From the NCBI GenBank assembly GCA_017523995.1, contig JAFWUX010000235.1, forward strand, positions 24,769 through 88,768: a stretch of 64,000 nt of DNA, in the 5' to 3' direction. Positions 29,583-41,172 of this stretch are shown here, piece after piece. Every line of letters begins with the position of its first letter. Within the stretch, counting starts at the first letter, position 1. The notes beneath the pieces were generated by a model, which was not told where the DNA came from, did not search any database, and was given only the letters and a program-made list of their open reading frames with translations. This stretch comes from Oscillospiraceae bacterium (GTDB lineage Bacteria; Bacillota_A; Clostridia; Oscillospirales; Ruminococcaceae). The position numbers and the translations under genes were made by a program.

Positions 29583-29761
29583 CACATGTACGGAAATGGT
29601 TGTACAAGTGAAAACAGAAATACGGACAAAATCTTTGTTTTATCCAGTATACTGTGAAATATTCACTTTCTTTTTTTGTATCAAGTATGATATAATAGAT
29701 AAAAAGTATATGGAAAAGTGCGCTCGTAGATACTTTTTGATTATTGGAAAGGGTGGAAACT

Positions 29762-32650
29762 ATGAAAATCAAGAAAAGTTGTACGGTCATGACAGCGATT
29801 GTCATGGCAGCCGCGATGCTGCCGCCAGCTGCAAGTCAGACCGCATCGGCTGCATACGGTTCCGGACAGAATGTCGCGGAATCGCTTGACCGCGGCATTT
29901 CTGCGGTCAACACCGGCTCCGGTATGCTCGTGAGCTGGCGCTTTCTTGCAGATGACAGCGACAGAGCGGAATTTCAGCTCTATCGCGATGACACGCTGAT
30001 CTATACAAGTGAGGCGGGCATGGCAACGAGCTATCTTGACAAAGGCGGCAATGCCTCCTCAAAATACCGCGTGGATACCGTGGTCAGCGGCAAGGTGGTC
30101 GGCTCCGATTCATGCACGATGATCTCGAATCAGTCCTATTTCGATATCGCGCTGGATATCCCGCGCGGCGGCACAACGCCGGACGGCGTGGCGTACACCT
30201 ACGAGGCAAATGACTGCTCGGTCGGTGACGTTGACGGCGACGGTGTCTACGAGATTTTTCTGAAATGGAATCCGACGAACGCGAAGGATAACTCGCAGTC
30301 CGGATACACAGGCAATGTCTATATCGACTGCTACCGGCTGACCGGCGAAAAGCTCTGGCGCATTGACCTCGGGCGCAATATCCGCGCAGGCGCACACTAT
30401 ACGCAGTTCCTTGTTGCGGATTTTGACAATGACGGCAAGTGCGAGATGACCTGCAAAACCGCAGACGGCACCGTTGATGCAAAGGGCAAAATCGTCGGTG
30501 ATGCATCAAAGGATTACCGCAACTCCGGCGGTTATATCCTCTCCGGTCCGGAATACTATTCGCTCTTTGACGGCGCGACCGGTACACTGCTCGATACCGT
30601 CAGCTACGAGTATCCGCGCGGCAACAGTCTCAAATCAACATGGGGCGACGATTACGGCAACCGCTGCGACCGTTTCCTCGGCTGCGTGGCTTATCTGGAC
30701 GGCGTTCATCCGAGCGCAGTCTCGTTCCGCGGATACTACACCCGCATGACGGCGGTCGCATACGATGTTGTCAACAAGAAACTGGTCAAGCGCTGGGCAT
30801 ATGACTCCGGTGTTGCACAGACCAACTACACCGGCTGGGGCAACGGCAACCACAACTGCATGCCCGCCGATGTTGACGGCGACGGCAAGGATGAAATCCT
30901 CGTCGGTGCAGTTGCATTCGATGACAACGGCAAGGTGCTGTGGTCCACAAACCTCGGCCACGGCGACGCGATGCATCTGAGTGATTTCCTGCCGGATCAT
31001 CCCGGTCAGGAATTCTGGGTCTGTCACGAGCATGAGCCGTGGGGCGTCTCGCTGATCGACGCTGCAACCGGTAAGATTCTGATTCACGAGAATCGCCGCA
31101 AGGATACCGGAAGATGCTGCGCAGGCAATGTCTGGGCAGGCAATCCGGGCGGTGAGTTCTGGGGTTCATATTCCGAGGCGGTCTTTAACGGTGCCGGTCA
31201 GTCAGTCGCGATGGATTGCCCGTCGATGAACTTCCTGATCTGGTGGGACGGCGATCTCGAGCGCGAGCTTCTGGATAATGTCGGCATCACAAAGATCAAT
31301 CAGGCAGGCAAGATCGTTTCGCTGTTTGAAGCAGCGGGATGCGCATCCTGCAACGGTACAAAGGCGACACCGAACCTTTCTGCGGATATCTTCGGCGACT
31401 GGCGTGAGGAGCTGATTCTGCACACCACGGACAGCAAGTATCTGCGCATTTTCTGCACACCGTATGAAACCGAGTACCGCATCACCACGCTGATGCATGA
31501 CATGCAGTACAGAATGCAGGTTGCAACCGAGCAGAACTGCTACAACCAGCCGCCGCATCCGAGCTTCTATCTCGGTTCCGATCAGCCGCTGCCGGATCGT
31601 CCTGCACTGACGATCAACGGTCAGCTGACCGGCTCCAATGATCCGGCGGTCATGGACACCACCAAGGCATATCATCTGCGCAATGCAAACAGCCAGCAGT
31701 GCCTCAGCACCTCTGACGGCAATGCGGTTCAGGCGCCCGAGAGCATGGACGCGAACACGATCTGGCATTTTGTAAAGACCAGTGATACCGGCTATCAGCT
31801 TGTCAATGCGGCAGGCGAAATCCTTGCAGTCAGTGCGGACGGCAGCAATGTGACGGTTGATCCTTCGAGCAGCAAAGAGGCACAGGAAATGGTGATCTGG
31901 CGCACCAACGGCGGATTCCTGATCCGTCCGGCAGCGCTTGAGAATGAGGCGTTTGTCGAGGTCGGCGGTGCTTCCACCGATGCAGGTGCAAATGTCCAGA
32001 CATGGGAGCGCAACGGGCACAAGTGCCAGACATGGGTGCTCGAGGCAGTCGCATATTATCCGGCAGCACCGGACTTCATCCCCGGCGATCTGGACGGAAA
32101 CCGCGTTGTGAATGCCGCTGATTTCTCGCTGCTCAAACAGGAGATTCTCAAGCCCGCACGCAGCCGCGTTGAAAAGCGTCCGGCAGACCTCAACGGTGAT
32201 GCCGCCGTGACAATCGCGGATGCAGTCGCAATGCAGAAGTATCTGCTGACCGGTGAGATTTACGCAGGCGGCTTCTACTATGCGATTGACGCCGGTTTTT
32301 CGCAGGGCATCGAGGAATCGACCAACGCAGGCTTTAAGGATGCAGCGTATGTGAATCTGGACAATGTCTCCGGCAGCTTTATCGAATTCCGCGTATATGC
32401 GCCGAAATCCGGCAGCTACTCCTGCGTTCTGCGCACGGCAAACGGCAGCACGGCGAACCGCATCATGAAGGTTTCGGTCAACGGCGGCGCCGGTCAGGCA
32501 GTGGACTTCAACGGTACCGGTGCATGGACAACATGGGAGGATACCAAGCTGACACTGACCCTGAAACCCGGCATGAACACCGTCCGCCTGACCTCTGATA
32601 CCGATCAGGGCGGTCCGAATATTGATTATCTTGCAGTGACACCTGCATAA
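29762..32650 (+). CDS. cellulosomal rhamnogalacturonan lyase (PL11) with ricin-type, dockerin and CBM35/6-like modules
   Basis: 962 residues, secreted (signal ~1-32). PL11 eight-blade propeller ~36-626: AESLDRGISAVNTGSGMLVS at the start, repeated calcium loops such as DVDGDGVYEIFLKW, DFDNDGKCEMTC and DVDGDGKDEILV, and the conserved GDWREELI. A ricin B-like domain lies at ~628-763, a dockerin at ~773-836 (GDLDGNRVVNAADFSLL; DLNGDAAVTIADAVAM) and a CBM35/CBM6-like sandwich at ~838-962. It cleaves the rhamnogalacturonan I backbone of pectin by beta-elimination. GGAAAGGGTGG precedes ATG 29762; the TTG at 29744 would put that site inside the gene. A TATAAT at 29691-29696 lies upstream with a poor -35. 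Confidence 0.93.
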   Translation: MKIKKSCTVMTAIVMAAAMLPPAASQTASAAYGSGQNVAESLDRGISAVNTGSGMLVSWRFLADDSDRAEFQLYRDDTLIYTSEAGMATSYLDKGGNASSKYRVDTVVSGKVVGSDSCTMISNQSYFDIALDIPRGGTTPDGVAYTYEANDCSVGDVDGDGVYEIFLKWNPTNAKDNSQSGYTGNVYIDCYRLTGEKLWRIDLGRNIRAGAHYTQFLVADFDNDGKCEMTCKTADGTVDAKGKIVGDASKDYRNSGGYILSGPEYYSLFDGATGTLLDTVSYEYPRGNSLKSTWGDDYGNRCDRFLGCVAYLDGVHPSAVSFRGYYTRMTAVAYDVVNKKLVKRWAYDSGVAQTNYTGWGNGNHNCMPADVDGDGKDEILVGAVAFDDNGKVLWSTNLGHGDAMHLSDFLPDHPGQEFWVCHEHEPWGVSLIDAATGKILIHENRRKDTGRCCAGNVWAGNPGGEFWGSYSEAVFNGAGQSVAMDCPSMNFLIWWDGDLERELLDNVGITKINQAGKIVSLFEAAGCASCNGTKATPNLSADIFGDWREELILHTTDSKYLRIFCTPYETEYRITTLMHDMQYRMQVATEQNCYNQPPHPSFYLGSDQPLPDRPALTINGQLTGSNDPAVMDTTKAYHLRNANSQQCLSTSDGNAVQAPESMDANTIWHFVKTSDTGYQLVNAAGEILAVSADGSNVTVDPSSSKEAQEMVIWRTNGGFLIRPAALENEAFVEVGGASTDAGANVQTWERNGHKCQTWVLEAVAYYPAAPDFIPGDLDGNRVVNAADFSLLKQEILKPARSRVEKRPADLNGDAAVTIADAVAMQKYLLTGEIYAGGFYYAIDAGFSQGIEESTNAGFKDAAYVNLDNVSGSFIEFRVYAPKSGSYSCVLRTANGSTANRIMKVSVNGGAGQAVDFNGTGAWTTWEDTKLTLTLKPGMNTVRLTSDTDQGGPNIDYLAVTPA

Positions 32651-33084: not shown

Positions 33085-33118
33085 CAGCGAGTCATCTTCT
33101 GATTGGCTCGCTGTTTTA
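33085..33118 (+). terminator. terminator of the 114-residue gene
   Basis: 9-bp stem 33085-33093/33105-33113 (one G-U) followed by TTTTA. Overlaps the pflA stop on the other strand. Confidence 0.7.
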
Positions 33119-33856
33119 CTGACTGTGCAGGCGGTGTTTGATCCCGCGCAGAATCTGCTTTCTCGCTTCGGCGGCGGTTTCGACGGAGACAGGTTTTGTG
33201 TCAGCAAGCGGATATGCAATGCCGAGCGATGCATATTTCTGCTTGCCGAAATCGTGATAGGGGAGGACATCGAGCCCTTTCAGCGTGCGCAGTCCGCCGA
33301 TGAATTCGCCGAGCCGGAACTGCTCGTCCGGATCATCCGTCCATTCGGGAACAATCACATGCCGCACCCAGAGCGGTACGCCATTTTTGCTCAGATATTC
33401 CGCAAATGCGAGGATTCTTTGATTGGAGTGTCCGGTGAGCCGCCTGTGTGCAGCATCATCTATGTGCTTGATATCGAGCATGACAAGGTCTGTGACTTTA
33501 AGCAGCGCATCACATTTTTCCGGATGCTGCGGATCAAAGCAGATGCCCGATGTATCCAGACAGGTGTGGATACCGGCAGCTTTTGCCTTTGTGAACAGCT
33601 CCGTCAGGAAATCAAGCTGCAGCATCGGTTCGCCGCCGGTTGCCGTGATGCCGCCGTTGTGGTAGAACTCGGAATTGCGCTGATACTGCGCAATTAGTTC
33701 TTCCGCTGTGACCTGCTGATTCGGCGCTGTGTCCCATGTATCCGGATTGTGACAGTAGAGACATCGCATCGGGCAGCCCTGAAAGAACACCACAAACCGG
33801 ATGCCGGGACCGTCCACCGTGCCGAAGCTCTCGGTTGAATGAATATTGCCTTGCAT
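33116..33856 (-). CDS. pflA: pyruvate formate-lyase activating enzyme
   Basis: 246 residues, normal length. A radical SAM enzyme that uses a [4Fe-4S] cluster and S-adenosylmethionine to place the radical on the catalytic Gly of pyruvate formate-lyase. Cluster cysteines 28, 32 and 35 are in FFQGCPMRCLYCHNPD. GGEP-type binding is visible in TATGGEPMLQ. It is the last gene of the pfl locus, 51 bases after the gene for the separate glycyl-radical domain, with a hairpin between. ATGAGGTGAAAT precedes the ATG. Its substrate here should be the free 79-residue protein, alone or bound to the large subunit. Confidence 0.95.
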   Translation of the reverse strand: MQGNIHSTESFGTVDGPGIRFVVFFQGCPMRCLYCHNPDTWDTAPNQQVTAEELIAQYQRNSEFYHNGGITATGGEPMLQLDFLTELFTKAKAAGIHTCLDTSGICFDPQHPEKCDALLKVTDLVMLDIKHIDDAAHRRLTGHSNQRILAFAEYLSKNGVPLWVRHVIVPEWTDDPDEQFRLGEFIGGLRTLKGLDVLPYHDFGKQKYASLGIAYPLADTKPVSVETAAEARKQILRGIKHRLHSQ

Positions 33857-33873: not shown

Positions 33874-33902
33874 AAAGCCCACGCCGTATCGGAGTGGGCT
33901 TT
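33874..33902 (-). terminator. hairpin between the glycyl-radical gene and pflA
   Basis: 9-bp stem 33894-33902/33874-33882 with an 11-base loop. Only a short T run follows on the - strand, so it may be a partial terminator or RNA-stabilising hairpin that lowers pflA expression relative to the upstream genes. Confidence 0.55.
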
Positions 33903-33907
33903 TTGTT

Positions 33908-34147
33908 TCAGATTTTTTCGTGGAATGTACGCGAAATGACATCGTCCTGCTGCTCTTTGGTCAGCTTGATGAAGTTGACCGCATAGCCGGAGACGCGAAC
34001 CGTCAGCTGCGGATATTTCTCCGGATGCGCCTGTGCATCCAGCAGCGTTTCGCGCGTAAACACGTTGACATTGAGGTGGTGGCCGCCCTTTTCGACATAG
34101 CCGTCAATCAGCTCTACGAGGTTATCAATCTGCTGTTCATTTGCCAT
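33908..34147 (-). CDS. separate C-terminal glycyl-radical domain of pyruvate formate-lyase
   Basis: 79 residues. After a short lead ([20 protein letters not shown]) the sequence is the C-terminal radical domain of [35 protein letters not shown] and DVISRTFHE. The radical-bearing Gly is residue 54 in RVSGYAV. E. coli GrcA (YfiD) is a similar stand-alone domain, but it only repairs an otherwise complete PFL. Here the large subunit upstream has no such domain, so this protein must supply it in trans. AAAGGAG at 34155-34161, 7 bases from the ATG, shows independent translation. It should be activated by PflA encoded next. Confidence 0.92.
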
Positions 34148-34167
34148 AGGAATACTCCTTTCACATT

Positions 34168-34395
34168 TCACAGTTCGGCTTCATCCGTCCGCGTTGCCGC
34201 CTCGGGATCTTCATCATTCAGGTCAAAATTCGGGACTGCGCATGCGCCCTTCGGACCGCATTCCGTGCTGTTGACTGTCTGCACGCGGGTTTTGTCTCCG
34301 ACAGTCAGGTTGATGTGCTGTGTGCCGTTTTCGATCAGCGCATCGAGCATCGCAACGAGTTCATCGGCATCGGGCTGCGGCTCATTCGGTCTCAT
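34168..34395 (-). CDS. 75-residue protein between the two PFL pieces, partly like the glycyl-radical domain
   Basis: 75 residues. Residues ~10-32 ([20 protein letters not shown]) align with the start of the neighbouring radical protein ([20 protein letters not shown]). After that the similarity stops: there is no RVSGYA motif, but a Cys pair (ECGPKGAC) and a very acidic tail. It starts inside the last codons of the large subunit (14-base overlap), with AAGGAG at 34403-34408 seven bases before the ATG, and ends 20 bases before the radical-domain gene. It may be a degenerate duplicate, or an adaptor that seats or protects the radical domain. Both are inference. Confidence 0.8.
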
Positions 34396-36460
34396 CGTCA
34401 GACTCCTTCCGTAGTGCATCCAGATCGAGGTCGCCGGAGAAGATTTTGGTATCCTTGCCGAGCGCATCCGGAATGATCGAGAAGGTGTTGGAGATGCCGT
34501 CCTGCGCGTGCTTGAACGGCAGCTTCGAGACGGATGTCAGCGATGCGACCGCGCCGTGGGTATCTCTGCCGTGCATCGGGTTTGCGCCCGGCGCAAGCGG
34601 AACACCGTGCTTTCTGCCGTCCGGCGTGTTGCCGGTCTTTTTGCCGTAGACAACATTCGAGGTGATGGTCAGGATGCTCATGGTCGGGATGCTGTCGCGG
34701 TAGGTGTGGTGCTTGCGGATCTTATCCATGAAGGTCTTGACGATGCTGACGGCGATCTGATCGACTCTGTCATCATCGTTGCCGTACTTCGGAAAGTCAC
34801 CCTCGACCTCGTAATCCACAACGATTCCGTTTTCATCGCGGATGCACTTGACCTTTGCATATTTGATCGCGCTGAGCGAATCCGCGACAACAGAGAGTCC
34901 GGCGATACCGGTTGCAAAGTAGCGCTTGACATCTCTGTCATGCAGCGCCATCTGCACCTTTTCGTAGCAGTATTTATCGTGCATATAGTGGATGATGTTC
35001 AGGGTGTTGACATAAAGACCTGCGAGCCATTCCATCATCTGATCATACTTGTCCATGACGTCATCGTAGTCGAGATAATCGCCGGTGACAGGGCGGTATT
35101 TCGGACCGACCTGCACCTTCATGACCTCATCGACACCGCCGTTGATTGCGTAAAGCAGGCACTTTGCGAGGTTTGCTCTTGCGCCGAAGAACTGCATCTC
35201 CTTGCCGACAACCATCGAGGAAACGCAGCAGGCGATCGCATAATCATCGCCGTGCGTGACGCGCATCAGATCGTCATTCTCATACTGAATCGACGAGGAC
35301 TTGATCGACATTTCCGCGCAGAAGCGCTTGAAATTGATCGGCAGCTTCTTTGACCAGAGCACAGTCATATTCGGTTCCGGTGCAGTGCCGAGATTGTTCA
35401 GTGTATTGAGATAGCGGAACGAGTTTTTCGTGACCATGTGCTGACCGTCCACGGAAACGCCGCCGATGGACTCTGTGACCCATGTCGGGTCGCCGGAGAA
35501 CAGTGCATTGTATTCCGGTGTACGTGCAAACTTGACCATGCGCAGCTTCATGATAAAGTGGTCGATCAGCTCCTGTGCTTCCTTTTCCGTGATGATGCCG
35601 CGGTCGAGATCGCGCTGAATGAAGATATCGAGGAAGGTCGAGGTTCTGCCGAGGCTCATTGCCGCGCCGTTCTGCTCCTTGACCGCTGCCAGATAGCCGA
35701 AATACAGCCACTGAACAGCCTCCTGCGCATTTTTCGCCGGACGGGAGATATCGAATCCGTAGATGTGTCCGAGTTCTTTCAGGTCACCGAGTGCGCGGAT
35801 CTGTTCCGAGAGTTCCTCACGCAGCCGGATGTTTTTGGATGTCATGCGGACAAAGTGCGTTGCCTTCTGGTGCTCCTTGTCGGCGATCAGCATATCAATG
35901 CCGTAGAGCGCGACTCTGCGGTAGTCGCCGATGATTCTGCCTCTGCCGTAAGCATCGGGGAGACCGGTGAGAATTGCGGATTTTCTTGCAAGGCGCATCT
36001 CGGGTGTATAGGCATCGAACACGCCCTGATTATGTGTCTTTCTGTACTTGGTAAAGATTTCGACCACTTCCGGATCAACCTCGTAGCCATATTCTCTGCA
36101 GGCATTCTGTGCCATGCGGATCCCGCCGAACGGCTGCAGTGCGCGCTTGAACGGCTTGTCCGTCTGTAAACCGACGATCTTTTCAAGATCCTTGTTCAGA
36201 TAGCCGGGGCCGTGCGAGGTGATTGTCGAAATGATTTTGGTGTCCATATCGAGGACGCCGCCTGCTTCGCGTTCCTGTCTGGAGAGATCCATGACCTGTG
36301 CCCAGAGCGTTTTTGTTGCTTCTGTCGGACCCTCGAGGAACGATGCATCGCCGTCATAGGGGGTAATGTTCTTCTGGATGAAATCTCTGACATTGACGGA
36401 GCTGTTGCTCCATTTTCCGGGCTGAAAACCTTCCCATTCCGGTGCAAATTCATTGATCAC
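34382..36460 (-). CDS. pflB: pyruvate formate-lyase large subunit lacking the glycyl-radical domain
   Basis: 692 residues; single-chain PFL has about 740-760. It converts pyruvate and CoA to formate and acetyl-CoA. The barrel and catalytic pair Cys411-Cys412 (AIACCVSSM) are intact, and it is clearly homologous through [15 protein letters not shown]. It then ends in a short acidic tail ([16 protein letters not shown]) exactly where normal PFL continues into the Gly-radical domain. That domain is encoded two genes downstream. The start is GTG at 36460, 10 bases after AGAAAGG; no in-frame ATG precedes it. Two downstream genes with their own ribosome sites make simple truncation or sequencing error unlikely. 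Confidence 0.93.
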
Positions 36461-37510: not shown

Positions 37511-38311
37511 TTAAGCGAATACCTGCTGAAATGCGCGATAGTTTTTGCTGTCCTCAGAGCCGTAAACCGCAAAGCATACGGTATTGAAATACAGCGCGAG
37601 ATCATCCTGCGCGAGCGCCTGCCTGAAACATTGTGCGACCATATCCGGGTCATTGCCGAATGCGCCGCAGCCCCACGCGCCGAGCACGAGATTCCGGTAG
37701 CCGTACTGCACCGCCGTCCGCAGAATGATGGAAATACGGCGAAGGAACGTCTCCTCAATTGTTTTCTTCGAGGCGAAGACCGCAGCACCGCGGCGGTTCG
37801 GCGCCGGAGCGGTAATGACAGCAGTCGGAAACGGATCCTGCAGCAGATTGCATTTGTGATCACGGAACACGCAGACTTCCTGCGAAAGCAGCATATAATC
37901 GGATTCGGTTGCGCTCAGATGCGAATTGTTATAGCGGTACATTTCCGCAGCTGCATCAGAGTTGATCGAAGCATAGAGCGTGCTGCAGCGGCAGAGCGCC
38001 TCCTCCTGTGCGTTTGCACCGAGCATAAATCCGCCGCCGACATGATGTGCATTGGCATAATTCAGCACCAGCGCATTCCCGAGCCGTTTGGCGGCGGTGA
38101 AGGAATCCTCTGTTGTGACCTCAACCTTGCAGGGGGCAGCACCGCGATCGCCTGCAAGCGGCTGCGTGAGCAGATCCTTCGCTTCATCCGGCGTGATGAC
38201 AACCACCGAATTGTAATCCGCTTTCGGGAGATGGATGGTTTCCGCACCGATGCTGTATTCGAGCAGACCGGTGATTTTGATCGTTTCATGTGCGATTGCG
38301 ATATTATTCAT
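37511..38311 (-). CDS. bacterial PARG-like (TIGR02452) ADP-ribose glycohydrolase
   Basis: 266 residues. The macro-fold catalytic signature is visible: NYANAHHVGGGFMLGANAQEEALCR region, that is GGG followed by the tandem-Glu QEE that characterises poly(ADP-ribose) glycohydrolases. LGAWGCGAFGNDP is the second macro-domain loop. Family members remove ADP-ribose from proteins or nucleic acids in the cytosol. AAGGAGGG precedes ATG 38311. No ADP-ribosyltransferase or toxin partner is adjacent. Confidence 0.85.
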   Translation of the reverse strand: MNNIAIAHETIKITGLLEYSIGAETIHLPKADYNSVVVITPDEAKDLLTQPLAGDRGAAPCKVEVTTEDSFTAAKRLGNALVLNYANAHHVGGGFMLGANAQEEALCRCSTLYASINSDAAAEMYRYNNSHLSATESDYMLLSQEVCVFRDHKCNLLQDPFPTAVITAPAPNRRGAAVFASKKTIEETFLRRISIILRTAVQYGYRNLVLGAWGCGAFGNDPDMVAQCFRQALAQDDLALYFNTVCFAVYGSEDSKNYRAFQQVFA

Positions 38312-38330
38312 AATGCCCTCCTTTTTTGGA

Positions 38331-38362
38331 AAAATCACCGATGCAAAGACACCGGTGATTTT
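38331..38362 (-). terminator. terminator of the O-acetylation operon
   Basis: 10-bp stem 38353-38362/38331-38340. On the - strand it is followed by TTCCAAAAAAGG, with Ts contributed by the stem end. Confidence 0.65.
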
Positions 38363-38622: not shown

Positions 38623-39600
38623 TCAGAAAATCTGTGTTTTCAGCCATTCAGACCATGTGACATAATATTTCGCATAGGGGTGCGTGTTGTCGCTGGTGTA
38701 CTCACTGCCGAGGCAGCCCTCAGCGTCATCGAACTGCGGATTGACGTCGAGATAGAAGATCGTTTTGTTATCCGCTTTTGCAGCGAGCAGCGCATTAAAG
38801 CTGTTGATCTTTGTGTTATTGACAACCGCGTCGCTGTAATGCCGTGCCGCTGAGACATGCAGGTTCGCCATCAGGATGATCTTTGCGCCGGGCTGAGCGG
38901 TGCGAATCTGCGCGATGATGTTATCCATGTTCTGCATGGTGGTGTTGAAATCCATACCGATTTCATTGATGCCGAGCATGATATAGACCTTGCCGTATTT
39001 TTTTCCGTTGAGAACCTGATTAAAGGTCTGGTTCTTGGTGCTTTCAACCTCGCTGAGCGCGCTGTCGATTTTATAGGTGCTCAGTCCGACGGTTGCAAAG
39101 TAGGTTGCGCCGTCAATCGGACCGTAGGATGCGATGCCGACCATGCGCGAATCACCGATAAAAAGTGCATCGTTGAAGTAACCCGCAGGGGCAGCCGCCG
39201 CATCGGATTGCGCGGTTTCCGTCACGGGTGCTTCAGTTACCGCCGTGGTGATCTCCGTCACGGTTGTGGTGACGGTTTCCGTGCTGACCGTGCTTTCAGT
39301 CGGTGCAGCGGTATCCGGATTATACGGCACAACATAATCCGGCGGAATCAGCGAGAAGCCATTTGCGTAGGTTGTTGTGGTGGTTGTGGATGTTGTTGTC
39401 TCCGTGGTGGTGGTCACGGTTGCGGCGATTGGCATATAGTCCGTTGTCTGCGCGACCTCTGCGACAATTTCTGCCGGATCGTTTTGCTGGACAGCCGGCG
39501 CTTTGTCTCCGGATTTCCAGATGAAAATCTTTCCGGTGATCAGGAACGCCGCTGTAAACACCAGCGCGAGGACAGATTTATTCGATTGCGTCATAGCCAT
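38623..39600 (-). CDS. extracellular SGNH/GDSL-type hydrolase or O-acetyltransferase
   Basis: 325 residues. An N-terminal membrane anchor (~10-28) is followed by a long Thr-rich linker (~60-145, with runs such as TTTTETTTSTTTTT) and an SGNH domain ~150-325: block I FIGDSRMVG with the nucleophile Ser, block III-like YIMLGINEIG, and a terminal DNTHP with the catalytic Asp-His. Such proteins paired with an MBOAT transfer acetyl groups onto surface polysaccharide, as with AlgI/AlgX or PatA/PatB. GAAAGGAGGAC precedes the start, and the MBOAT gene ends 18 bases upstream. Confidence 0.87.
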   Translation of the reverse strand: MAMTQSNKSVLALVFTAAFLITGKIFIWKSGDKAPAVQQNDPAEIVAEVAQTTDYMPIAATVTTTTETTTSTTTTTTYANGFSLIPPDYVVPYNPDTAAPTESTVSTETVTTTVTEITTAVTEAPVTETAQSDAAAAPAGYFNDALFIGDSRMVGIASYGPIDGATYFATVGLSTYKIDSALSEVESTKNQTFNQVLNGKKYGKVYIMLGINEIGMDFNTTMQNMDNIIAQIRTAQPGAKIILMANLHVSAARHYSDAVVNNTKINSFNALLAAKADNKTIFYLDVNPQFDDAEGCLGSEYTSDNTHPYAKYYVTWSEWLKTQIF

Positions 39601-39618
39601 ATCAGATGTCCTCCTTTC

Positions 39619-41172
39619 TCAGAACCGGAAGTACAGGAACGGATCGTTCATGCCCATATAGATGCAGTAGCAGGATGCGCCGAGAATCACTGCAAGCTCA
39701 GGAATCCAGAAGAACTGATTGAAAACCGGACGGTTCTTCTTCGGGATTCTGGTGTAGAGCATTTCGCGCGCGAAAATCGGGAGAATAAACAGCAGCCAGA
39801 GCCACTTGCGGAAGATCACGGATACAAGAATGATCAGGGCGGTTTCGATCAGCCAGAAGAACTGACCGAAGTTGCTCTTGTGACGGTTTTTCATCATCTT
39901 GTAGAGGTTCTCCGGCAGCGCCGTGCAGAAGATCAGACCGATGATGAGCCATTTGCCGTAGGTGCCGAAGTATTTGACGTAATCGTTCGCCATGAGTGCA
40001 GGACCGCCGAATCCGAAGAGCTTTGCCAGAAACATGCCGAGCTGCTTCATATCGGAGATTGCAAACAGCGCCCACGATACCGGAATCCAGAACAGCATGT
40101 AGATGTGACCGAGCCATTTATGCGTGTTGAGCACCTTGCCGATTTTCGCCTTTTCCAGTGACATCAGTCCGAACAGGAGCAGTCCCCAGAGGATGAAGTT
40201 CCAGTCCGCGCCGTGCCAGAAGCCGGTCAGTGCCCAGACAGCGAGCATATTGAGATACATTCTGCGCTGTCCCTTGCGGTTGCCGCCAAGCGGGATATAA
40301 ACATATTCGCGGAACCATGTGCCGAGCGTCATGTGCCAGCGCCGCCAGAATTCGGTCATGGTTGTGGAGATATACGGGTGATTGAAGTTCTGCGGGAAAT
40401 GGAATCCGAACATCAGACCCATGCCGATTGCCATCTGCGAATAACCGGAAAAATCAAAGTAAAGCTGCATGCTGTAGGCGATGATGCCGAGAATTGCAGC
40501 GCGCGTGGAGATCGAATCATAACCGACAGTCTGCAGATCCGTCCAGAGACCGCCGAGCGTGTTGGCGAGCAGCACCTTGCGCCCGAGACCGATGATGAAC
40601 AGCTGAACTCCGTCATTGAACTCATTGCGGCGGACGATGCGGTCATGCAGCTCCTTCTGCACATCGGAGAAACGGACAATCGGTCCGGCAATGAGCTGCG
40701 GGAACATCAGGATATAGGTTCCGAGGTCGATCAGATTGTATTCGATCTTGACATCGCCGCGGTAGACGTCAATCAGATAGGATGCGATCTGGAACGTGAA
40801 AAAGCTGATGCCGAGCGGCAGAATCAGATGCGTCAGCGGCAGATTCACACCGGGCAGTACATTGATATTTTTGATAAAGAAATCCGCGTACTTGAATATG
40901 AACAGATTGCCGAAATCCCAGATCAGACCGAGCGTCAGATAGAGTTTTTTGTGTCCGTCCTTCCTGCCGATCAGCATGCCGCAGATCCAGTTGATCACAA
41001 CCGAAAGCAGAATCAGCCAGAGATACAGCGGTGTTTCCTTTGCACCGTAGGCGTAGAACACGATGCTGAAAAACAGCAGCACCAGATTCTTCGCCTTTTT
41101 TCTCGCCAGCATATAGACGATCAGGCAGAAGGGCAGAAACCAAAGTAAAAATTCAAAGCTGCTGAAAACCAT
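39619..41172 (-). CDS. MBOAT family membrane O-acyltransferase (AlgI/DltB-like)
   Basis: 517 residues, about 11-12 membrane segments. Conserved blocks are FWRRWHMTLGTWFREYVY and WALTGFWHGADWNFILWG, whose second His is the active-site residue of the family. It moves acyl (usually acetyl) groups across the membrane for modification of an extracellular polymer. The SGNH protein encoded downstream is the likely acceptor transferase. First gene of a three-gene - operon. No dltACD are adjacent, so teichoic-acid D-alanylation is less likely. Confidence 0.92.
   Translation of the reverse strand: MVFSSFEFLLWFLPFCLIVYMLARKKAKNLVLLFFSIVFYAYGAKETPLYLWLILLSVVINWICGMLIGRKDGHKKLYLTLGLIWDFGNLFIFKYADFFIKNINVLPGVNLPLTHLILPLGISFFTFQIASYLIDVYRGDVKIEYNLIDLGTYILMFPQLIAGPIVRFSDVQKELHDRIVRRNEFNDGVQLFIIGLGRKVLLANTLGGLWTDLQTVGYDSISTRAAILGIIAYSMQLYFDFSGYSQMAIGMGLMFGFHFPQNFNHPYISTTMTEFWRRWHMTLGTWFREYVYIPLGGNRKGQRRMYLNMLAVWALTGFWHGADWNFILWGLLLFGLMSLEKAKIGKVLNTHKWLGHIYMLFWIPVSWALFAISDMKQLGMFLAKLFGFGGPALMANDYVKYFGTYGKWLIIGLIFCTALPENLYKMMKNRHKSNFGQFFWLIETALIILVSVIFRKWLWLLFILPIFAREMLYTRIPKKNRPVFNQFFWIPELAVILGASCYCIYMGMNDPFLYFRF

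Follow-up and report, generated by a model that had tools for sequence, protein, structure and literature searches.

In the window (the whole 64,000-nucleotide stretch of DNA that was analysed) lies a pyruvate formate-lyase (PFL) whose large chain stops short of the domain that bears the glycyl radical, with that domain encoded by a small gene of its own. The locus therefore raises the question of whether it specifies a working enzyme built from separate polypeptides or a damaged PFL accompanied by a spare radical domain, and of what a further small protein, encoded between the two pieces, contributes to it.

The large chain and the radical subunit

On the minus strand the genes run in the order large chain, MID, RAD, pflA (Table 1), RAD being the radical subunit and MID the small protein encoded between it and the large chain. 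Against the PFL equivalog profile TIGR01255 the large chain scores 1150.6 bits, over the cut-off of 994.2, with a match that spans positions 1-664 of the 744 in the profile; the remainder of the profile is found on RAD, and the glycyl-radical domain expected on the same chain of a PFL is missing from the large chain. The Pfam Gly_radical model is likewise divided between the two proteins, positions 2-50 falling at the end of the large chain and 50-106 on RAD. Alignment of the large chain to E. coli PFL stops at about residue 681, and the C-terminus of the window's protein is an acidic tail without cysteine.

The initial annotation had described a large chain that keeps the catalytic Cys411-Cys412 and ends at residue 692, before the radical domain. 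Both the TIGR01255 profile and alignment with the PFL chains 38la and 38lb bear this out, the alignment also confirming the numbering of the two cysteines, which are adjacent in the motif IACCVSS. Its account of the radical domain as a separate 79-residue protein, with Gly54 in RVSGYAV and its own AAAGGAG site, and with pflA behind it, was equally sound: AAAGGAG does precede the RAD gene, RAD scores over the threshold of NF038360 (autonomous glycyl radical cofactor GrcA3; 170.8 bits, cut-off 158) and under that of TIGR04365 (GrcA/YfiD; 96.8 bits, cut-off 170), and the next gene matches the profile of the activating enzyme. The claim of a split into two polypeptides stands insofar as the radical glycine is on a separate chain, and needs amending in that a third conserved product, MID, had been overlooked. 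Values of dN/dS for the large chain lie between 0.02 and 0.09 in 10 pairs, indicating strong purifying selection. Judged from its sequence, the locus encodes a naturally split PFL in which the radical glycine is carried by a separate polypeptide.

Table 1. Features of the split-PFL locus, in window coordinates
Feature	Position	Strand	Description
PFL large (catalytic) chain	34382..36460	-	692 aa, GTG start, Cys411-Cys412, without radical domain
MID	34168..34395	-	75 aa, ATG start; radical-domain-like N-terminal part, then C46-x5-C52-x2-P55, no glycine loop
RAD radical subunit	33908..34147	-	79 aa, GrcA3 family, Gly54 in RVSGYAV
13-bp inverted repeat between RAD and pflA	33874..33902	.	attenuator-like
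pflA, radical SAM activating enzyme	33116..33856	-	246 aa, TIGR02493 289.4 bits (cut-off 231.75)

The MID gene overlaps the last 14 bases of the large-chain gene, and GGAAGGAG, seven bases 5' of the MID ATG, serves as its ribosome-binding site; with this overlap behind such a site, the large chain and MID are probably translationally coupled. The inverted repeat between RAD and pflA is not among the sites returned by a terminator scan, and Rfam and tRNA scans of the window gave no matches.

The surroundings of the locus offer some indication of its host. A plus-strand gene at 29744-32650 encodes a rhamnogalacturonan lyase (family 11) with ricin-type lectin, dockerin type I and CBM6 domains, and this combination of domains suggests a cellulosome-forming relative of Ruminococcus. 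Close to the PFL genes, a minus-strand gene at 37511-38338 encodes a protein with a microbial-type PARG catalytic domain, and at 38623-41172, also on the minus strand, a GDSL-type lipase/acylhydrolase adjoins an MBOAT acyltransferase, perhaps as a surface O-acetylation pair.

Distribution of the split enzyme

GTDB representative contigs were scanned with the large chain and the 80 best loci kept. Loci of the kind that the initial annotation proposed to look for in related genomes, short PFL proteins with an adjacent radical protein, were indeed found. The radical loop is absent from the large chain in 79 of these 80 nearest loci, a share that is not a census because the 80 were picked for their likeness to the window. 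RAD lies in the same locus in 77 of the 79 (one RAD being cut by the end of a contig); the two exceptions are a locus whose contig ends past the large chain (L051) and one whose RAD is on another contig (L039). The only single-chain PFL among the 80 is that of L076. With the large chain lacking the radical loop in 79 of the 80 loci, a sequencing error or frameshift as the cause of the split is very unlikely.

Two of the split loci have features of their own. In L039, from Gastranaerophilales, the large chain and RAD sit on different contigs, so that the radical subunit need not be co-encoded with its partner. In L118 (genome G186) the large chain is broken by a stop codon (one TAA; frame of 420); we nevertheless counted this locus as split, and its genome is one of the 35 considered below.

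To place the split in a broader sample we turned to the class that contains R. bicirculans. Of 196 genomes drawn evenly from it, 103 held PFL1 over the cut-off, and 9 of these are split (the match ends by profile position 674), the other listed PFL1 matches over the cut-off ending at 742-744. Within the family of R. bicirculans, 55 of 100 genomes had PFL1 over the cut-off and 14 were split (ending by 677). Thus, from both draws, split PFL is a minority type in the class that supplies most of the nearest relatives of the window.

A tree of 137 large chains sets 110 of them (109 split chains and that of L076) apart from 27 single chains, with 99% support by a quick method; the tree omits L116 (a repeat of L017), two of 33 extra loci whose large-chain frames are too short, and three single-chain loci. 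The single chain of L076 nests within a supported set of split chains, and a one-clade test gave p 0.033 against a group of all split rows apart from L076, a group that was named after the tree had been seen. Because of this nested position, the tree suggests that L076 regained its single chain, a probable re-fusion.

Another way to view the split is to ask whether organisms that carry it have any other PFL1. Among 35 related genomes with split PFL, of which 8 were added by the class draw, 13 by the family draw and the others by two further checks of 10 and 4 genomes, 34 lack a single-chain PFL1 over the TIGR01255 cut-off; many of the 35 are drafts, so some of these absences may be gaps. The sole exception, Claveliimonas bilis (L013), has a split PFL with a cysteine tail and a single-chain PFL in one genome. 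In R. bicirculans 80/3, which is recorded as a complete sequence, only split PFL1 was found. For these related genomes, the count supports the initial annotation's contrast with E. coli GrcA, a spare for full-length PFL, and split PFL is apparently the normal and, in 34 of the 35 related genomes, the only PFL1.

MID and its alternation with a cysteine tail

MID matches no Pfam family and has no significant sequence match in the PDB, which holds no MID-like chain. A sequence search with the window's MID returned 81 relatives, and a profile built from 22 MIDs found 1353 proteins at E 0.001 or better, a total that may include radical proteins because the MID and RAD profiles overlap; the best 120 of the 1353 have no Pfam domains and are at most named hypothetical. 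Residues 5-34 of MID match the start of RAD (hhalign probability 95.4%, E 1.8e-8), so that the N-terminal third of MID corresponds to the helix and first strand of the radical domain. Against NF038360 itself MID gives a weak match of 18.1 bits, over residues 9-36 only and below the cut-off.

Beyond this third the resemblance gives way to cysteines. A glycine loop of the RVSGY type is absent in all 201 MID relatives examined, and every one of the 201 has at least two cysteines (80 with two, 111 with three and 10 with four), arranged in 195 of them as C-x(n)-C-x(1,2)-P with n mostly 5 or 6. In an alignment of 22 MIDs the start Met, D18, C52 and P55 are invariant and H27, C46 and A51 nearly so, four of these seven residues falling in the cysteine motif. 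Mean column identity is 37% for MID versus 82% for RAD. Of 10 computed pairs, 8 give a finite dN/dS for MID, in the range 0.04-0.25, with dS saturated in some; an eleventh pair was left out of the computation. MID is present in 50 of the 80 split rows (the 79 split loci and the window) and, at over 40 bits, in none of 30 single-chain PFL loci. We found no fusion of MID to another protein in the 10 genomes with a full-length MID match (out of 391 searched), where the matching open frames measure 66-97 aa. An AlphaFold2 model of MID has a mean pLDDT of 57.4, with no confident fold. By these comparative measures MID is a genuine protein, kept under selection and linked to split PFL.

A chance open reading frame or a decaying copy is ruled out as an account of MID by the 81 relatives, the dN/dS values and the cysteines retained across the 201 relatives.

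The arrangement of the genes is open to variation. In L117 the order is large chain, RAD, MID, and in L058 a gap of about 980 bases between MID and RAD contains a number of short reading frames that resemble one another (MKRRKSIGRQPVNEQA...) and probably form a repeat array.

Where MID is absent, the large chain usually ends in a tail with cysteines of its own, in motifs such as DCSNGACASPTLFEGLD, CGNMACNIPN and GCCED. The 80 split rows comprise 50 with MID and no tail cysteine, 28 with tail cysteine and no MID, and none with both, the remainder being one with neither (L036) and one not typeable (L051, where the contig ends); L079, which pattern-based typing had missed, is counted as MID type by separate inspection. 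A further 33 split loci, one of which repeats an earlier locus (L116 = L017), gave 18 with MID, 12 with a tail, three with neither and none with both. The split between types was 13 MID, seven tail and one neither for the 21 of these picked by the PFL model only, and five, five and two for the 12 picked via MID-profile matches. Altogether, the 112 typed rows (one a repeat) include none with both elements and four with neither (L036, L123, L141 and L142). The single chain of L076 also has neither MID nor tail cysteines.

How closely the tails are related to MID depends on their length. The C-terminal part of the MID profile matches large-chain tails in 3 of 391 genomes (E 9.5e-5 to 7.0e-4), so the longer tails at least match the MID motif by sequence. 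For short tails such as GCCED, the tie to MID is the presence of cysteines only. Spacing within the tail motifs is variable, from adjacent CC upward, and some tails may therefore be another element than that of MID. In an AlphaFold2 model of a tail-type large chain the mean pLDDT is 63.6 and the tail falls under 50, so that neither this model nor that of MID positions the cysteines reliably.

The two types are intermixed on the tree, where at least five switches of the MID label are needed to account for the supported branches. Five independent contrasts can be drawn on supported branches, of which about three go in opposite directions, about two show no difference and none goes the same way (median p 0.25); with only five contrasts the statistical weight of the exclusion is modest. 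L123 (genome G176) occupies a basal position in the split group, on a long branch; it has neither MID nor tail cysteines, and its large chain comes to a natural end at ...SLGKDD directly before RAD. With four typed rows in neither class, this basal locus among them, the thiol element is not strictly required, and it may be a later addition than the split. Most lineages without MID nonetheless have a tail cysteine motif, and for this reason we take the usual constant part to be a thiol pair near the radical slot.

Proposed working of the enzyme

We consider it likely that the locus encodes a PFL whose radical subunit is both obligatory and exchangeable. In enzymes of this kind a cysteine element would usually lie near the radical-domain slot, either in a docked MID or attached directly to the large chain. 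RAD would be activated by PflA, would dock where the C-terminal domain sits in single-chain PFL, and would hand its radical to Cys411-Cys412 of the large chain; after cleavage by oxygen, RAD could be replaced and the large chain kept. A working two-piece PFL is biochemically plausible by analogy, because the end of the large-chain alignment (about residue 681) lies near an artificial cut in the E. coli enzyme. In the study of that cut, E. coli PFL ending at residue 695 has wild-type activity with YfiD once activated, residues 696-733 are a recognition element for YfiD binding and activation, and a YfiD strand must replace the matching PFL strand (PMC8683613).

The docking end of MID (helix and first strand) would go to the same slot or to its edge, which would bring the cysteine pair beside the active-site opening of a large chain without RAD. 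This thiol pair would most likely give the open active site redox protection or act as its gate, or else quench a radical left stranded. Since other lineages retain the cysteine motif alone, attached to the large chain, it is apparently the thiols and not the docking end that have been preserved. As a tentative and more specific possibility, MID may be a glycine-less decoy of the radical domain that uses the docking end it shares with that domain to enter the slot left vacant as the radical subunit comes and goes, its thiol pair guarding or resetting the open site, and that has been swapped with a covalent cysteine tail, or back, several times, with neither element in one sampled locus with apparent re-fusion.

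The locus can also be read without an obligatory radical subunit, with RAD as a mere spare of the GrcA/YfiD type, the large chain as a decayed or damaged PFL, and a single-chain PFL elsewhere doing the work. NCBIfam does name RAD GrcA3, and split and single-chain PFL do occur together in Claveliimonas bilis; however, the other 34 of the 35 split-PFL genomes have no single-chain PFL1, the large chain is held under purifying selection (dN/dS 0.02-0.09 in the 10 pairs) with its catalytic cysteines kept, and RAD, at 79 aa, has no counterpart of the long stretch that precedes the radical domain in YfiD, where this domain begins at residue 67 of 127, all of which contradicts this reading for most genomes and leaves it very improbable. 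No more credence can be given to the idea that the split is the only functional feature of the locus and MID a functionless, decaying duplicate of the radical domain. The much faster change of MID than of RAD would suit it, as would the few split loci without MID and without tail cysteine, but it does not sit with a dN/dS well below 1, with at least two cysteines throughout the 201 relatives, with a ribosome-binding site, or with the exclusion between MID and the tail motif.

Among functions for MID other than that of a decoy, a small metal-binding (zinc or iron-sulphur) regulatory subunit, like those of benzylsuccinate synthase and 4-hydroxyphenylacetate decarboxylase, would account for its size, its conserved cysteines and its partnership with a glycyl radical enzyme, and tail-type large chains would then carry the same site. 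We think this unlikely, since two to four cysteines per MID and some tails with adjacent CC could make up a four-ligand site only if it were shared between two chains, and MID has no Pfam or PDB match; the small number of cysteines and their uneven spacing also count against a classic metal site. Somewhat less doubtful is a role for MID as a recognition or assembly factor, a separate-chain stand-in for residues 696-733 of E. coli PFL that aids RAD binding and activation, with its cysteines secondary. The match of its N-terminal third to the start of the radical domain speaks for such a role, as does, in the E. coli study, a 32-fold cut in YfiD activation on removal of 696-733 (PMC8683613). Against it, the tail-type large chains (28 of the 80 split rows) have only the cysteine motif and no such segment, and four of the seven invariant or nearly invariant MID residues belong to that motif.

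The favoured reading, a PFL with an exchangeable radical subunit and a nearby cysteine element, can be set beside the systems that it most resembles. With single-chain PFL (TIGR01255; E. coli PflB) it shares the barrel, the Cys-Cys pair, the radical-domain sequence and a PflA-type activase, and it differs in having the radical domain on a separate protein, an acidic tail past about residue 681 and, in addition, MID or a cysteine tail. Like GrcA/YfiD (TIGR04365) and GrcA3 (NF038360), RAD is a radical domain that stands alone, but whereas YfiD rescues oxygen-cleaved full-length PFL, 34 of 35 related genomes have no PFL radical domain other than RAD, and RAD is without the N-terminal half of YfiD. 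The PDB chains 38la_A and 38lb_A (Formate acetyltransferase) match the large chain nearly throughout and are absent among the PDB matches of RAD. Chain 38lb runs on into a tail with GECDMC; 38la ends in SLGKED, like the naturally short large chain of L123, and is either naturally short or a truncated construct. Both differ from the window's locus in that the PDB has no chain like MID to accompany them. 4-Hydroxyphenylacetate decarboxylase is a glycyl radical enzyme accompanied by a small cysteine-containing protein. In benzylsuccinate synthase, the BSS-beta and BSS-gamma subunits bind [4Fe-4S] clusters (PMC12590467). MID resembles these small subunits as a cysteine-containing partner of a glycyl radical enzyme, and is unlike them in having few cysteines and in resembling the radical domain.

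The initial annotation had not counted the arrangement among described systems, which is right in part. The split itself is partly known, through the GrcA3 family and through the PDB chains 38la and 38lb without a radical domain; no paper on a natural split PFL was among the matches listed in the open-licence PMC literature, a body of text outside which most subscription papers fall. As far as searches of that literature show, MID, its kinship with the radical domain and its alternation with a cysteine tail are undescribed, and the existence of MID and this alternation were unexpected.

PFL holds a central place in the fermentation of gut and rumen bacteria, and among glycyl radical enzymes it is the best studied. 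With a radical subunit that can detach, three questions become testable: how the radical domain gets from the active site to the activase, how oxygen-cleaved enzyme is repaired, and how the site is protected when the domain is away. For the last of these, the cysteine element, whether MID or tail, which belongs to no named family, provides a handle.
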